Virus record (IMG/VR): IMGVR_UViG_3300033148_008901
Span: 1 to 23,536 of that record
DNA: 23,536 nt
Origin: a virus
Strand: one strand, 5' to 3'
The stretch's first letter is position 1. Each line of letters opens with the position of its first letter. Below the pieces are notes generated by a model, which did not search any database, was not told the DNA's origin, and worked only from the letters and a program-made list of their open reading frames with translations. The translations under genes and the position numbers were made by a program. Positions 2,740 to 21,991 of the stretch are shown here, piece by piece.

Positions 2740-4208
2740 GCGCATCTGCGGTCGCCCGGGCCTCGGAACTTTCCGCAGACGCCGCAGGCTCCTCCATCAC
2801 CCTGCCGTACCGCTTCACCCCGCGCGGGTACCAGGCGCCGTTTTTCCAGGCCATGGACAGCGGTTTCCGCCGCGCCATCGCGGTGTGGCATCGGCGTTCG
2901 GGCAAGGACAAAACCTTCATCAACTACCAGATACGCGAGGCCTGCCGGGTGCCGGCGTTATATTATTATTTTTTCCCCACTTACAAACAGGCCAAGAAGG
3001 TGATCTGGAAAGGGATGGACCTCGGCGGATTCAAATTTTTGAACCATTTCCCGCCGACGATGATCTCCCACATCGACAAAACGGAGATGAGCATCGAGCT
3101 CACCAACGGCTCGTTGTGGCAATTGATCGGCACCGATCATTACGATTCCATCAGGGGCACAAATCCCTATGGGTGTGTATTCTCGGAATATGCGTACCAA
3201 AAACCCCTGGTGTACGACATCGTTCGTCCCATCCTACGCCAAAACGGGGGATGGGCCGTGTTTAATTTTACTCCCCTGGGAGAGAATCACGCCTACGACC
3301 TGTACGAGAACAATCGTGACAATCCCGGCTGGTGGGTGAACCTCCTGACGGTGGACGACACCGGCGGGATAGTTACACCCGAGATGATAGAGGAGGAGCG
3401 ACGCGAGGGCATGGCCGAGGAGATGATCGAGCAGGAATATTATTGCTCGTTCACCGCCGGGCTGGTGGGTTCATATTTCGGCCAGCAGATGCGCCAGGCC
3501 GCATCCGAGGGCAGGATCGGCCCGGAGTACGGCTATGATTCGTCCTACCCTGTGGATACATGGTGGGACCTCGGCGTCGGCGCGGAAGACGCTACGGCGA
3601 TCTGGTTCACCCAGACCGTGCCGGGGCGCAACCGCATCCACCTCATCCATTTCTTCGAGGATATGGGCCAGCCCCTCAGCTATTACGTGCGCCACATGGA
3701 GGATTTCCGCCGCCAAACCGGCTGCCGCTTCGGCCGGCTAGCCTGGCCTCACGACGGCGGCCATCCGGACCGGGTCCAAGCACGGCCCCTGGCGGATGTA
3801 GCCCGCGATTATGGCATCAACCCGGAGGTTACGCCCAGGACAAAGAACAAGCTCGACTCGATAGACGCAGCGAGGCGAATACTCATGATCTGCTGTTTCA
3901 ACGACCGGGACCCGGGCATTCAATACGGGATAAAGGCACTTAAATCTTATCATAAATCCTATGACGAGGAACGGAAGGTTTATAAAAACCGGCCCGACCA
4001 CGACTGGAGCTCACACGCCGCCGACGCATTCATGGTAATGGCCGACAACCACGAGCTGACATACGGGGATAAGGTTTCCAGCCCGACAAAACGGGCGGAC
4101 TGGAGGAGCGGGAAACGGGCAAAACGGGGACTCAAGATCATTGCCGAGGAGTCTGCCGAGCGCGAGCTGAAGAGCTTGGAAGATATCATATTTCCCAAGA
4201 AAAATTAA
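2736..4208 (+). CDS. terL: Terminase large subunit (packaging ATPase and nuclease)
   Basis: 490 residues, the usual TerL length. The ATPase domain shows a Walker A-like loop RRSGKDKT at 53-60, a Walker B CVFSEYA at 147-153 with catalytic Glu151, and a coupling-motif-like FNFTP at 177-180. The RNase H-like nuclease domain shows acidic residues in WWDLGVGAEDATAIW (D278), WPHDGG (D340) and SSHAADAF (D430). Together these define the motor that pumps DNA into the prohead and cuts it. AAGGAGG precedes the ATG. It is coupled to terS and upstream of the portal, the canonical packaging order although five genes intervene before the portal. Confidence 0.96.
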   Translation: MSASAVARASELSADAAGSSITLPYRFTPRGYQAPFFQAMDSGFRRAIAVWHRRSGKDKTFINYQIREACRVPALYYYFFPTYKQAKKVIWKGMDLGGFKFLNHFPPTMISHIDKTEMSIELTNGSLWQLIGTDHYDSIRGTNPYGCVFSEYAYQKPLVYDIVRPILRQNGGWAVFNFTPLGENHAYDLYENNRDNPGWWVNLLTVDDTGGIVTPEMIEEERREGMAEEMIEQEYYCSFTAGLVGSYFGQQMRQAASEGRIGPEYGYDSSYPVDTWWDLGVGAEDATAIWFTQTVPGRNRIHLIHFFEDMGQPLSYYVRHMEDFRRQTGCRFGRLAWPHDGGHPDRVQARPLADVARDYGINPEVTPRTKNKLDSIDAARRILMICCFNDRDPGIQYGIKALKSYHKSYDEERKVYKNRPDHDWSSHAADAFMVMADNHELTYGDKVSSPTKRADWRSGKRAKRGLKIIAEESAERELKSLEDIIFPKKN

Positions 4209-13686: not shown

Positions 13687-14253
13687 TCAGCCTTTTGCCT
13701 TTAGCTTTATAAACTCATACCACAAGACGATCTCGCGGCGGAGTTCTGGGTCGGCCAAGTCTTCGATCATGCCGGCCAGGGACTCGCGCTCCTCCCGTTG
13801 GACACCGGCCAGGTCCCGGACGTGCCCAGCCGCGGCCGAGAGCCGGTCCTCGTCGCTCATAGCCCGGTTGGAGGAACCCTCCCGGCGCACCACTTCGACC
13901 GGAGGAGAGCGGCCCTCCAACTCCGCCCCGTAGAGAATCCACACCTCGGACGCGCCGGTCTTTTTGGCTATGTTTCTGGCCGCATCCACGCTGATCCTCT
14001 GATGTCCCCGCAGATAACGGGTGATGGTCTCTGGCGCTAACCCCAGCCTGGCAGCGAACTCCTTTCTTTTCTCTCCCGGGTACATAAGGCTTTGTAATCG
14101 CCCCTGTGGCGTGGATAAGTCTATGTTATGTTTAGCCTTTTTTCTGTTGATTTTTTTTCCCAACGCAAAAAGCTGTTTGGGGAGCGCACTGCTCCACCTC
14201 GGCCCTGTTGGGCTTTTTTTTACTCTAACCCTGTGATTAAAAAAAGAAAACAT
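13687..14253 (-). CDS. XRE-family repressor (CI-like)
   Basis: The open frame is 188 residues. The helix-turn-helix KEFAARLGLAPETITRYLRGHQRISVDAARNIAKKTG lies in the middle, followed by a helical C-terminal half. There is no visible Ala-Gly cleavage site or Ser/Lys peptidase motif, so RecA-driven self-cleavage is not evident. It faces a rightward Cro-like gene across an inverted-repeat operator, the classic lysogeny switch. The start is uncertain: ATG 14253 lacks an SD, and the first 30 codons overlap plus-strand hairpins and a T-run. TTG 14163 (158 residues) is an alternative that keeps the whole HTH domain. Confidence 0.85.
   Translation of the reverse strand: MFSFFNHRVRVKKSPTGPRWSSALPKQLFALGKKINRKKAKHNIDLSTPQGRLQSLMYPGEKRKEFAARLGLAPETITRYLRGHQRISVDAARNIAKKTGASEVWILYGAELEGRSPPVEVVRREGSSNRAMSDEDRLSAAAGHVRDLAGVQREERESLAGMIEDLADPELRREIVLWYEFIKLKAKG
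14181..14221 (+). terminator. Plus-strand terminator-like hairpins inside the repressor 5' end
   Basis: GGAGC-GCACT-GCTCC (14181-14195) is followed by GCCC-TGTT-GGGC (14202-14213) and eight Ts (14214-14221). In the + direction this is shaped like a rho-independent terminator, which could stop late readthrough before the early promoter. It also suggests that the extreme 5' end of the repressor frame may be untranslated. Confidence 0.5.
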
Positions 14254-14258
14254 ATTTT

Positions 14259-14303
14259 ATCTTGAGCGAGAGCATTTTTTTTCTTGACATATCCGCTCAA
14301 GAT
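14259..14303. promoter_or_regulatory. Inverted-repeat operator between repressor and cro-like gene
   Basis: ATCTTGAGCG at 14259-14268 is the exact reverse complement of CGCTCAAGAT at 14294-14303. The right arm lies in the spacer of the rightward promoter and the left arm is just upstream of the repressor frame, so binding of the XRE repressor or Cro-like protein would control both directions. A near half-copy (TCTTGACAT) lies at 14282-14290. Confidence 0.65.
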
Positions 14304-14313
14304 GTGCTAGGCT
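14284..14313 (+). promoter_or_regulatory. Rightward early promoter
   Basis: TTGACA at 14284-14289, an 18-base spacer, and TAGGCT at 14308-14313 preceded by TGC (extended -10). It drives the Cro-like and integrase genes and overlaps one operator half-site. Confidence 0.65.
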
Positions 14314-14356
14314 TTATTTGTCGCCTCAACACGTAACATAGCAGGTATTGACGAAG

Positions 14357-14629
14357 ATGTCAACTGAAAAAGACGCGCATATGGCGAATGCCCGCCTGCC
14401 CCAGAGGCTCTCGGAACTTCTGGCCCGGCGCGGCGACCGGGCCGAACTGGCCCGCCGGACTGGGCTCACACGCCAAATGATTTCGCGCTACTGTTTGGGC
14501 GAAGTGAGCCCGTCGGGCCGCACCCTCAGCCGCCTAATCGAAGGACTTTCCGACATGTATCCCTACAAGCGCATCACCGCCGACGAGCTTTTGGGGCTCG
14601 ACATGCGAAATATGGCCAGGAGCAGATGA
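14357..14629 (+). CDS. Cro-like helix-turn-helix regulator
   Basis: 90 residues from ATG 14357; TTG 14348 and ATG 14381 are alternatives. The HTH is AELARRTGLTRQMISRYCLGEVSPSGRTLSRLIEGL. It is small, divergent from the repressor and first in the early transcript, which matches Cro or a Cro/CII-type role. The stop overlaps an ATG at 14626 in the integrase frame, so translational contact with int is possible. Confidence 0.78.
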   Translation: MSTEKDAHMANARLPQRLSELLARRGDRAELARRTGLTRQMISRYCLGEVSPSGRTLSRLIEGLSDMYPYKRITADELLGLDMRNMARSR

Positions 14630-14709
14630 TGGCGCGGGAAAAATTGACTAACGCGACAAAAAATAGTATTCCTTACGCGGTGCTGATACAAGTGAATGGA
14701 GGTGCCGCC

Positions 14710-15765
14710 ATGGGATACCTTATCAGAAAAACGCGCGGGGGGAAAAAGTACGGCAGTTACATTGCCTGCTGGAAGACCGATGACGGATGGGTGCGGCGTT
14801 CCACCCGCACCCGCAACCGCAAGTTGGCGCTGAAAAAGCTGGCCCAATACGAGATGAGCACGGAGTTTCCCGGCGCCGCCATCGCCGTGCCCCAATTTAG
14901 GGATTTTGCCGCGGAATACCTCAACTGGTGCGCCGCCAATAAAAAATACTCCACTTGGGACGGGGAGCGGCGGCTGATGCCCCGCATGGTCGAGCGGTGG
15001 GGACACGAGCGACTCGACTACGTGGACGCCGCTTCGATCAGCAAATACGTCGAGCACCGCCGACGCCAGGGAGTACGGGCCTCCAGCATCAACCGCGAGA
15101 TGAGTATGCTGCGCAGCATGTTCGAACTCGCGGTGCTGCGCCACCGGGCGGCGGTCGTGCCGCAGATTCCCCGGTTGCGCGAGTCAGACTCGGAGCGCCG
15201 CGCCACCCTCCCGTCCGGGTTCTGTATGGCCGATGTGCTGAAGCACATCAACCCCAGGGCGCGGCTGGCCGCCCTCACGATGTATCACACCGGTATGCGT
15301 CGCGGCAGCGTGTGCTCTCTCACCTGGGATATGATTGATCTCGAGGCCGGCCTGATGCAGCTCCCACCCGCGCATCTAAAACAGGGACGTGCCCACGACG
15401 TGTGGATGAGTGATGAGCTTATTAAAGAGTTCTCGCGCGTGCCTGTCCAAAAACGGACAGGCAAAATATTCACTGGCCACGCCTCCACGCTGACCAGGTA
15501 TCTGCGCTCGGCCATGATCGCGGCCGGGTTTTACAGGCCGGGGAGCGTGTGTCACGCCCTCCGGCACCAGTTCGCCACCGACATGCTACGCCGCGGAGTG
15601 GACCCCCGCACGGTGCAGGAGCTGTGCGGCTGGGCGACCATGAGCATGGTGGAACTTTATGCCCACACCTCGGCCGAGCGCCAGCGGGCGGCGGTGCGCG
15701 GCCGCACTGCGGGTCGGGGTAAGGTGGTCCGGCCCAATTTCGGTGGGAGGAGCGGCGATGAATGA
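14710..15765 (+). CDS. int: Tyrosine recombinase integrase
   Basis: 351 residues from ATG 14710, chosen for GGAGGTG five bases upstream; an ATG at 14626 would add 28 residues with no domain. It has an N-terminal arm-binding region (about 1-55, basic), a core-binding SAM-like domain (60-150), and a catalytic domain with R197 (TGMRRG), K224 (HLKQGR), H282/R285 (HALRH), W308 and nucleophile Y317 (ELYAHTS). All key residues are present, so it should be active in phage integration and excision. The gene ends directly before the candidate attP, the usual arrangement. Confidence 0.95.
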   Translation: MGYLIRKTRGGKKYGSYIACWKTDDGWVRRSTRTRNRKLALKKLAQYEMSTEFPGAAIAVPQFRDFAAEYLNWCAANKKYSTWDGERRLMPRMVERWGHERLDYVDAASISKYVEHRRRQGVRASSINREMSMLRSMFELAVLRHRAAVVPQIPRLRESDSERRATLPSGFCMADVLKHINPRARLAALTMYHTGMRRGSVCSLTWDMIDLEAGLMQLPPAHLKQGRAHDVWMSDELIKEFSRVPVQKRTGKIFTGHASTLTRYLRSAMIAAGFYRPGSVCHALRHQFATDMLRRGVDPRTVQELCGWATMSMVELYAHTSAERQRAAVRGRTAGRGKVVRPNFGGRSGDE

Positions 15766-15770
15766 GGCGC

Positions 15771-15796
15771 GTCCTTGTGCCCTATGTGTGCCCCAC
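15771..15796 (+). repeat. Direct repeat copy 1 (candidate integrase arm site)
   Basis: A 26-base sequence beginning GTCCTTGTGCC and ending TGTGCCCCAC, identical to 15956-15981. It contains two TGTGCCC steps in tandem, like paired arm-binding sites. Confidence 0.8.
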
Positions 15797-15830
15797 TCTC
15801 TCAATCCCTCTGTAATTACCGCCTTTAGAT

Positions 15831-15864
15831 GCGGACAATCAATCCGCAAGCCGCAGGTTCGAGT
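15831..15864 (+). other. tRNA-like core of candidate attP
   Basis: GCGGA-CAATCAA-TCCGC (15831-15847) has the 5-bp stem and 7-base loop of an anticodon arm, then AAGCC, then GCAGGTTCGAGT as at the start of a T-arm. After this the match to a tRNA 3' end stops (ACATTTGG). Position 33 of the loop is A, not T, and the T-stem cannot close, so it is a fragment, not a tRNA gene. Confidence 0.5.
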
Positions 15865-15955
15865 ACATTTGGCCGCGGCAGGATTCCATCAAAATCAGGC
15901 TCTTACCGGACAGGGCAAATCACCAATACCACAGCCCACGCACGCCACCGGCGCA

Positions 15956-15981
15956 GTCCTTGTGCCCTATGTGTGCCCCAC
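15956..15981 (+). repeat. Direct repeat copy 2 (candidate integrase arm site)
   Basis: Perfect 26-base copy of 15771-15796, 185 bases downstream in the same orientation. Confidence 0.8.
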
Positions 15982-16110
15982 CACAAATATCTATAGAGAG
16001 AAAATGGGAGTGCGGGGTCCGTCCCTTTCCAAAAAGCGACCACCCCGGACGGATACAAAAAATCTTTGTAGCAGACACTACTCCAAGAAGTCCCGATCAG
16101 GGGGCCAATA

Positions 16111-16338
16111 ATGCAACTGACGGTGAAAGATAAAAAACGGATCGAGGCGAGGTTCAGGCAGGCGCGGGCAGAATTCAAGAGACTGATGGAAGAGACCCGG
16201 GCGCTCAACGAGCAGATACGCCGCCTGGGACAGGACAATCTACGACACGGAAGGAAAGTCGGCGGCCGAGGGGCCGAGGGAGGAGAAAGATGCGAAAAAC
16301 CGAGCAAAAAAGAAATGGAAAACCCAAGCAGCGGGTGA
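16111..16338 (+). CDS. Small charged coiled-coil protein
   Basis: 75 residues; AGGGGG lies six bases before the ATG. Residues 5-42 form a highly charged helix (KDKKRIEARFRQARAEFKRLMEE), then a Gly/Arg-rich tail. It overlaps the next gene by 49 bases in another frame. No family recognised. Confidence 0.6.
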   Translation: MQLTVKDKKRIEARFRQARAEFKRLMEETRALNEQIRRLGQDNLRHGRKVGGRGAEGGERCEKPSKKEMENPSSG

Positions 16339-16819: not shown

Positions 16820-18169
16820 ATGCGCTACGTGCCGTTTGATCCCAGGACCTATTCGGATGCCAAGTTCCTGCGCCTATCCGGGCCGCAACCCAACGCCCGG
16901 GACCTGTTCATATTCCTCATCCAGGGCACAGTGACCACCGCTCTACCGGGACTGATAAAAGCCGGCCCGGGCACCCTGGCCGAGCACCTGGGCTGGGATA
17001 TTAATCAAACGGGCCGTTTATTGGCTGAACTAATGAGCGTACACAACGAAAAGGCTGGTGAAACCCCACTGGTGAAATACGATCCGGTCCACCACATCAT
17101 ACGGCTGCCCAAGTGCTTCAAGTACGAAAAACCCCGCAATGAGAATGCGCTGATTGCATGGGCACGTGTGTTCGACGAGCTTCCCGACTGCAAGCTGAAG
17201 CTGGAGTATTGGCACGACCTGAAAAAGTTGTGTGACGAGATGGGCGGCAACTTCCCAAAATACTTTAGCAACACCTTTGGGAACGGGAAAACCCCGTTTT
17301 TAACACCCGAACAAACGGGCGAACAAACGGGCGAACAAACGGGCGAACAAACACCAGGAACGAACAGGTCAACAAACAAGCCATTTACGAAACACACAAC
17401 AACATCTTCATCTTCAGACTCAAACTCATTATCAACAACAACAAGGGGCGGCGGCAACACCGCGGCGGGGGGCGGCAAGAACGGCTCCGGATTCGTGCCC
17501 GGTGTTGTTGATAATGAACACCAGGAAAACGGAGAGAAAATCTCCAACCCGGGGAGAAAGGAGGACGAGCTGCTGGTCTCCGGCCTGGTGGAACTGGGGC
17601 TGACACGCGCCCGGGCCCTGCTGGAGACTGAGCGGCGCGGGCCGGAACACTGCCGCCGGGCGCTGGAGTGGACCCAGTCCAAGGCCCGTGCTAACCCTGC
17701 GGGGTATTTTTTACAAGTGGTGAAAAATCACCACCTCGACCCGTCCCCGGCCGAGCGCCAACGGGCGGCGGAAAAAAAACAGCTGGAAGCGGCTGAGACG
17801 GCCCGGGAAGAGCGGCGGCGGGCCCACGCCCTCCGGAAGCGAAAAGCGGCAGAGGAGGCAACTGAGGAGGCACAGGCGGCGGAAATGGAAGCCCGTTGGG
17901 AGGCGCTTACGGAACCGGAGCGGGAGGAGCGGCTCGAGCGGGCCCGGGCTGGGCTCCCCCCGCGGCTGCGACTGAATGAGTATGTGGTAAAGAACACCGC
18001 CATCGCTCAGATGGAGGAACCCACGGGGGACCAGGTTGAACCCTCGGGAGGACGCGTATCGTCGGGCACGTGCCCGACGCGCTCATGTCTGGCGTGCGGG
18101 TTTGTCTGTGTGGACCCGTCGAAGACCAGGTGCATCAAGTGCGGGGGAAAGCTGGGGAAGCTCACGTGA
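16820..18169 (+). CDS. Replication initiator-like protein (O-type layout) with C-terminal zinc ribbon
   Basis: 449 residues. The N-terminal ~110 residues (MRYVPFDPRTYSDAKFLRLS, later TALPGLIKAGPGTLAEHLG) have the winged-helix pattern of phage replication initiators/replisome organisers. A low-complexity linker (about 160-235) contains tandem GEQT units and Ser/Thr/Gly runs. A DnaD-like or helicase-loader-type helical part follows (about 250-310), then a long Glu/Ala/Arg coiled coil (315-385). It ends in a zinc ribbon (CLACG...CIKCG). DNA encoding the linker holds tandem 12-mers and an inverted repeat, the lambda O/ori arrangement. Initiator role is inferred from layout and position in the early region. 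Confidence 0.7.
   Translation: MRYVPFDPRTYSDAKFLRLSGPQPNARDLFIFLIQGTVTTALPGLIKAGPGTLAEHLGWDINQTGRLLAELMSVHNEKAGETPLVKYDPVHHIIRLPKCFKYEKPRNENALIAWARVFDELPDCKLKLEYWHDLKKLCDEMGGNFPKYFSNTFGNGKTPFLTPEQTGEQTGEQTGEQTPGTNRSTNKPFTKHTTTSSSSDSNSLSTTTRGGGNTAAGGGKNGSGFVPGVVDNEHQENGEKISNPGRKEDELLVSGLVELGLTRARALLETERRGPEHCRRALEWTQSKARANPAGYFLQVVKNHHLDPSPAERQRAAEKKQLEAAETAREERRRAHALRKRKAAEEATEEAQAAEMEARWEALTEPEREERLERARAGLPPRLRLNEYVVKNTAIAQMEEPTGDQVEPSGGRVSSGTCPTRSCLACGFVCVDPSKTRCIKCGGKLGKLT
17308..17352 (+). repeat. Tandem 12-bp iterons (candidate origin core)
   Basis: CGAACAAACGGG occurs three times back to back (17308-17319, 17320-17331, 17332-17343), followed by a partial fourth copy (17344-17352). An A/C-rich low-GC tract follows to about 17450. 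Iterons inside an initiator gene followed by an easily melted tract match the lambda-type origin; the repeats also encode GEQT units, so protein-level repetition is the alternative. Confidence 0.6.
17426..17517. repeat. 15-bp perfect inverted repeat next to the iterons
   Basis: TCATTATCAACAACA at 17426-17440 is the exact reverse complement of 17503-17517, separated by 62 GC-rich bases. It lies inside the initiator-like coding frame, just after the A/C-rich tract, as inverted repeats do in lambda-type origins. Confidence 0.65.
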
Positions 18170-21055: not shown

Positions 21056-21316
21056 ATGAAAAATGAAAGAACTGTCGAGCGGCGGAAAAAGGTATACGGC
21101 AAGGAATACCACTGGTTCGTTTGGGAAGATATACCTTTTGAACTTATCGAGTACGGCGACTATTTCCGCCTGCTGGAGCCGAACGGCAAGATTGTCTATG
21201 AAGGGGTCGCGCTTTCTTGCGCGGTCCCTGTCAAGGGGACCTTGTCCAATTATGAGGTCAGGGTTGTGGACTGGGACAAACTTCCCGAGCCGAAACACGA
21301 GATACCTTCGGTATAG
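21056..21316 (+). CDS. Small hypothetical early protein
   Basis: 86 residues from ATG 21056; AAGGAGG lies about 12 bases upstream. The 20999 start would lack an SD. Basic N-terminus (KNERTVERRKKVYGKEYH) followed by a beta-rich region (WFVWEDIPFELIEYGDYFRLLEPNGK). No family recognised. Confidence 0.65.
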   Translation: MKNERTVERRKKVYGKEYHWFVWEDIPFELIEYGDYFRLLEPNGKIVYEGVALSCAVPVKGTLSNYEVRVVDWDKLPEPKHEIPSV

Positions 21317-21349
21317 GGAAAGCGGGGCGGGACTCCGCTCCATCCCGAG
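21315..21349 (+). repeat. Intergenic remnant matching part of the RuvC-like gene
   Basis: 35 bases starting AGGGAAAGCGGGGCGGGAC match 21699-21733 with one mismatch. The second copy codes QGKRGGTPLHPE in the resolvase; this one lies at the 3' edge of the previous gene and codes for nothing complete. It looks like debris from a duplicated or deleted resolvase gene. Confidence 0.8.
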
Positions 21350-21493: not shown

Positions 21494-21991
21494 ATGAAAA
21501 TTCTCACCATAGACCCGGGCCGCAACTGCGGCCTAGCGTACTACGATACGGATAATCCGCCGCAGAAATCATATCAGGTCTGTCTGGGCCGCTCCAGCGC
21601 CTCGTGGATATCCCGGCTGGATAAATTCTCCACGGCGCTGGAGAGCACGGCCGATGGCGGCGTGGACATCCTGGCGGTGGAGATGATACAGGCACCGCAG
21701 GGAAAGCGGGGCGGGACTCCGCTCCACCCCGAGGTGATAAAATTGCACCGATATGTGGGGGTGGCGGCGCTTTTCGCCGCCCGCACGGGAGCCGCCATGG
21801 TCGAAATCGCCCAGAATACCTGGAAGAAGTCTCTGGGTAAAGGCAACATGAGCGCGGAGGAGGCGCGAAAGGCGGCGCGGATAGTGTGGAGGCTCGATCA
21901 CGAGCCCGGCCCGGACGAGGCAGCGGCTTTGGGGATGCTGTGGTGCATACTCAACCGCTACAACGTCAAGGACATGGGGGTGAAGGAATGA
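21494..21991 (+). CDS. RuvC-like Holliday junction resolvase
   Basis: 165 residues, the usual RuvC size. The RNase H-like fold shows D7 in LTIDPGRNCG, E63 in LAVEMIQ, and D141/E142 in GPDEAAALGML, the acidic catalytic set. It would cut four-way junctions or branched DNA formed during replication and recombination, before packaging. No conventional SD is seen (GAAAAAGAG upstream). The last four bases overlap the next start. Confidence 0.88.
   Translation: MKILTIDPGRNCGLAYYDTDNPPQKSYQVCLGRSSASWISRLDKFSTALESTADGGVDILAVEMIQAPQGKRGGTPLHPEVIKLHRYVGVAALFAARTGAAMVEIAQNTWKKSLGKGNMSAEEARKAARIVWRLDHEPGPDEAAALGMLWCILNRYNVKDMGVKE

Follow-up and report, generated by a model that had tools for sequence, protein, structure and literature searches.

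Gene neighbourhood and integrase

The virus record IMGVR_UViG_3300033148_008901 is a linear sequence of 23,536 nt, probably from an incomplete genome, and was analyzed here over its whole length (hereafter, the 23.5-kb window). A non-coding gap in this window separates the gene for a tyrosine integrase (int) from early genes encoding helicase-loader-like, methyltransferase and RuvC-like proteins on its right. Repressor-like, Cro-like and head genes lie to the left, as do terminase, portal-like, capsid and adaptor genes, so that phage genes flank the gap on both sides, as the initial annotation had stated. The features of this neighbourhood are:

13687-14253, minus strand: candidate repressor, with a helix-turn-helix-like sequence recognized by eye and no NCBIfam match
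14243-14319, strand not applicable: inverted repeat in the repressor/cro intergenic region, with ATCTTGAGCG / CGCTCAAGAT inside
14348-14629, plus strand: Cro-like helix-turn-helix gene upstream of int (PF01381, E 4.4e-8)
14710-15765, plus strand: tyrosine integrase, 351 aa (PF00589, E 1.8e-25; PHROG 1 integrase, E 9.2e-47)
15766-16110, plus strand: attP region, the gap from int to the early genes, non-coding by six-frame coding score
15771-15796, plus strand: left arm-site pair (P arm), an exact 26-bp repeat with two TGTGCCC motifs, in a layout found also in relatives
15956-15981, plus strand: right arm-site pair (P' arm), with the same sequence and layout as the left one

The inverted repeat at 14243-14319 likely comprises operators and is distinct from the TGTGCCC repeats. 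Within positions 14348-16338, int lies behind the Cro-like gene and the attP region stands between int and the early genes, all presumably in one transcript; on this map, integration would sever the early genes from the Cro-like operon and its promoter, a possible regulatory effect. The early genes also contain a 35-bp direct repeat (21315-21349 and 21699-21733; 34/35 identical, 384 bp apart), and a 12-bp tandem repeat at 17308-17352 encodes EQTG units in the helicase-loader-like protein.

The integrase likely starts at position 14710, behind a GGAGG sequence, which gives the 351-aa product. The claim that the site immediately follows an intact integrase was borne out: the reading frame is open, and the catalytic residues R197, K224, H282, R285 and Y317 are invariant across 36 sequences, with W308 in the sixth place. 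In an AlphaFold model built with 35 relatives (pLDDT 87.9), residues 3-52 form an arm-binding N-domain of three strands and a helix, followed by core-binding and catalytic domains, and the model matches the full-length lambda Int structures 1z1b and 5j0n with E about 1e-9. As modelled, the integrase is lambda-like and carries an arm-binding N-domain. No close relative of either the integrase or the major capsid protein was found in IMG/VR; distant integrase relatives, at about 20-33% identity, were recovered among the matches listed, and a six-member integrase alignment proved too diverse to serve as a search query.

Paired repeats in the non-coding gap

The gap is conspicuous in a phage of such compactness. 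Its coding score ranges from -0.04 to -0.19 bits per codon over the six frames, against +0.2 to +0.5 for most known genes in the window. A 117-aa frame (15758-16111) with a good ribosome site overlaps both neighbouring genes; it was rejected as a gene, its codon score of -0.16 being at the non-coding level, and this reading is further weakened by the fact that the 26-bp repeats sit in different frames.

The two repeats reported by the initial annotation are exact (26/26 identical, 185 bp from start to start), and each holds two TGTGCCC motifs 11 bp apart, starting at 15776, 15787, 15961 and 15972. The longest repeat obtained from 1000 dinucleotide shuffles of the region was 11 bp. Since both arm pairs stand together, the site is uncut. 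Neither the arm nor the core strings had a match in IMG/VR, and Blastn of the attP region against phages and plasmids returned matches at E about 1 only.

Arm sites and tRNA halves in distant integrase relatives

Several distant relatives carry the same layout directly after int, with paired motifs spaced by 11 bp and lying about 185-230 bp apart around a core. In the segment after int, the motif ACGTCCC occurs at 32, 43, 228 and 239 in relative L036, and AGCTGTC at 14, 25, 198 and 209 in L088; the corresponding motifs are CTACACA (in pairs) in L060, CAGGACA in L010 and TGCTGAC in L072. Strict arm geometry was observed in 5 of 50 non-redundant viral relatives and in 57 of 5347 control segments (p about 2e-4). 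Between the arms, a tRNA 3' half of Met type is present in L036, of Lys type in L088, of Asn type in L060 and Sec-like in L010, as read by eye from the anticodon loop. Among the matches listed, int is followed within 450 bp by a tRNA or tmRNA gene in 36 of 72 relatives from bacterial genomes, compared with 0/65 upstream controls (p 5e-13); a tRNA half after int is lacking in many viral relatives.

Taken together, the exact repeats following an intact int, the lambda-like N-domain, the layout in relatives and the tRNA genes after int identify positions 15766-16110, as far as sequence can tell, as an uncut attP with arm sites beside its own integrase. The comparison with distant relatives likewise supports the earlier proposal of arm-type direct repeats around a tRNA-derived core. 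The repeats do lie between regulatory and replication genes, which would suit repressor operators or replication iterons, but the repressor/cro divergence has a separate inverted repeat, and the family-wide position of 11-bp-spaced pairs right after int fits arm sites; that the repeats are operators or iterons is accordingly a distant outside chance.

One relative, L072 (IMGVR_UViG_3300044606_000119, 3690-4064), has arrays of its TGCTGAC arm motif around a 14-bp core matching the anticodon arm of tRNA-Thr(CGT), the only notable tRNA match of its attP. A complete tRNA-Thr(CGT) gene, the sole tRNA of that record, lies directly beside the attP, and an endolysin-like gene is found further on. From its sequence, L072 is a candidate for a non-restoring attP and tRNA-dependent lysogeny. 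In another relative, L115, a complete tRNA-Met is followed by two copies of a 44-bp sequence from a tRNA-Met 3' half (at about 180-355 bases after int), a pattern suggestive of tandem integration by small elements.

A decayed tRNA-Arg-like 3' half between the arms

The segment between the arms contains the following features:

15830-15848, plus strand: anticodon-arm-like hairpin TGCGGA-CAATCAA-TCCGCA, a 6-bp inverted repeat with 7-bp spacer; possible core-type Int sites and overlap
15831-15880, plus strand: decayed tRNA-Arg-like 3' half, from the anticodon stem to the CCA position (35/49 match, evaluated with shuffles)
15841-15864, plus strand: best-kept part, tRNA positions 37-60 (21-22 of 24 to tRNA-Arg)
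15850-15864, plus strand: GCCGCAGGTTCGAGT, at 15 bp the longest stretch shared exactly with real tRNA-Arg genes; candidate common core
15856-15864: T-arm start GGTTCGAGT, present in the sequence
15865-15880, plus strand: decayed 3' strand of the T-stem (ACATT), acceptor strand and GCA instead of CCA (8-9 of 16 to tRNA-Arg, positions 61-76)

The hairpin is weak evidence by itself, 6-bp arms with a 7-bp spacer occurring in 137/2000 shuffles. The arrangement in tRNA register (a stem of 5 bp with a 7-nt loop, then 4-5 nt, then the start of a T-arm) appeared in 5/3000 shuffles and occurs once in the 23.5-kb window. An ungapped slide over the whole window, on both strands, against 83 tRNA 3' halves gathered before any core-guided search, placed positions 15832-15880 as the single best of 46,976 places, with 35/49 matches to tRNA-Arg(ACG); the next unrelated place reached 31. 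Each of the top four of the 83 tRNAs at 15832 is an Arg(ACG), and one Asp scores the same as the fourth. When the inter-arm segment was shuffled 3000 times, the maximum was 31 and none of the shuffles reached 35. A score-based local alignment was less decisive (2/200 shuffles and 10/200 other segments of the phage scored as high), and the claim of tRNA-Arg likeness therefore rests on the register-based test. On these statistics, and to judge from its sequence, the core has its origin in a host tRNA-Arg gene, of which it represents the 3' half.

The resemblance is uneven. Positions 37-60 are well kept, positions 61-76 are decayed and positions 33-36, at the anticodon, match tRNA-Arg at 0-1 of 4; these three comparisons use tRNA-Arg genes found later and chosen via the core itself, and are not independent evidence for arginine. 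The hairpin and the GGTTCGAGT T-arm start described in the initial annotation are both present, but the T-stem strands GCAGG and ACATT are unpaired, and the loop lacks T33 and has an altered anticodon. Without T33, CAATCAA cannot be a tRNA loop, which would place the crossover elsewhere if attB is a tRNA. The Rfam tRNA model gave no score for the window core; the L060 half scores 16.5 bits. With the T-stem unpaired and CCA absent, the half supplied by the phage would not rebuild a tRNA upon integration, and the prediction of a clean insertion at a tRNA 3' half fails, the half being too decayed to restore the gene. Integration here would probably break the host tRNA gene.

The best-kept 24 bp (15841-15864) had no exact match in any of 84,980 genomes. 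A mismatch-tolerant search covering the genomes of 50 relatives and one phylum yielded two-mismatch matches scattered in 20/395 genomes of that phylum. The proposed search against bacterial tRNA genes recovered a 15-bp exact match to tRNA-Arg and nowhere the full 24 bp; most of the closest tRNAs are arginine tRNAs, from a range of bacteria, and the core does not identify the host as had been hoped. Nor did the expectation of related prophages bounded by the core materialize, as no integrated copy in a close relative was found among the matches listed.

An attP that rebuilds the tRNA of a host with an unusual tRNA would agree with the register, orientation and inter-arm place of the half, which are as in L010 and other relatives; it is nonetheless highly improbable, being largely refuted by the unpaired GCAGG/ACATT strands, the missing T33 and CCA and the presence of the 24-mer in no genome searched.

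Interpretation of the decayed core

The two likeliest readings are a short-core attP, as in tRNA-dependent lysogeny, and an attP with a shifted target. We favour, with modest confidence, the first: an uncut attP of a temperate tailed phage whose core derives from a host tRNA-Arg half and has decayed, so that it no longer rebuilds the tRNA and depends on a short shared core and on compensation. Through its N-domain, the lambda-type integrase would bind the TGTGCCC pairs of the two arms, and strand exchange would take place in the core between the arm pairs. In the ancestral design, usual among the integrase relatives, the phage half would have repaired the tRNA entered; with the half now decayed, recombination at a tRNA-Arg gene would leave a broken tRNA. 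The phage would most likely need only a short core shared with attB, for which GCCGCAGGTTCGAGT is the candidate, and either host redundancy or a tRNA-Arg encoded by the phage itself, outside the recovered part of its genome, would make up for the lost tRNA. Counting against this explanation are the results of searches that included the Rfam tRNA model and found no tRNA gene in the 23.5-kb fragment, as well as the lack of the 24-bp segment in genomes, of an Rfam score and of an integrated copy, the missing T33 in the loop-like CAATCAA, and the weaker local alignment.

That the attP works but has shifted to a target other than a tRNA is possible but doubtful. The tRNA-Arg half would then be either a fossil or a coincidental resemblance, and an overlap such as CAATCAA would match another chromosomal site. 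Consistent with this, positions 33-36 are lost while a clean 6-7-6 inverted repeat, the usual layout of a core site, is kept, and in many viral relatives int is not followed by a tRNA half; the 21-22 of 24 positions retained at 37-60 would, however, be unexpected of a free fossil, and the 17-mer GCGGACAATCAATCCGC occurs in nine other viral contigs at about chance frequency and in unrelated contexts. Decay of the core could also mean that the attP is non-functional and the phage is losing lysogeny, but the integrase is intact in all catalytic residues and the arm repeats are 26/26 identical, and we consider this very unlikely.

Comparison with known integration systems

Compared with lambda-type (bivalent) tyrosine integrases and their P and P' arm sites, the window shares the domain order, the modelled N-domain and a core adjacent to int with paired direct repeats on either side. 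It differs from lambda in the place of int, downstream of a Cro-like gene in a rightward operon, and in a core that is apparently tRNA-derived, whereas lambda's is not; arm binding is here a prediction. With attP sites that rebuild a tRNA 3' half, such as that of Boilgate (PMC10865867) and those of L036, L088, L060 and L010, it has in common a tRNA half in register between arm pairs. The window half, however, is decayed: its closest match among the first 83 tRNAs is 35/49, it is not near-identical to a tRNA 3' half as far as CCA, its T-stem does not pair, and it would be unable to rebuild a tRNA.

Fionnbharth, LeBron and Gaia, in which lysogeny is tRNA-dependent, have a tRNA-derived attP, paired arm sites and an N-terminal arm domain without tRNA reconstruction (PMC10865867), and the window resembles them in all these respects. 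It has a 15-bp block in common with tRNA-Arg genes and is decayed at the 3' end, and may thereby share only a short core with a host tRNA; it differs in having no phage tRNA in the incomplete record and in that a decayed half can still be recognized outside the short core, and nothing links it to actinobacteria. Here an attP has been worked out for a phage without close known relatives, in a set of integrase relatives in which arm sites are repeatedly combined with tRNA halves. An open question is whether the loss of an attP able to rebuild its tRNA gives rise to tRNA-dependent lysogeny (PMC10865867); the window attP bears on it if its decayed half is what it seems, and L072 is a second, cleaner candidate. 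Tentatively, the window may represent tRNA-dependent lysogeny outside the actinobacteriophages at a stage part-way, a once tRNA-rebuilding attP whose half is decaying because its role has passed to a phage tRNA-Arg outside the sequenced part, with L072 as a completed case among the distant integrase relatives.
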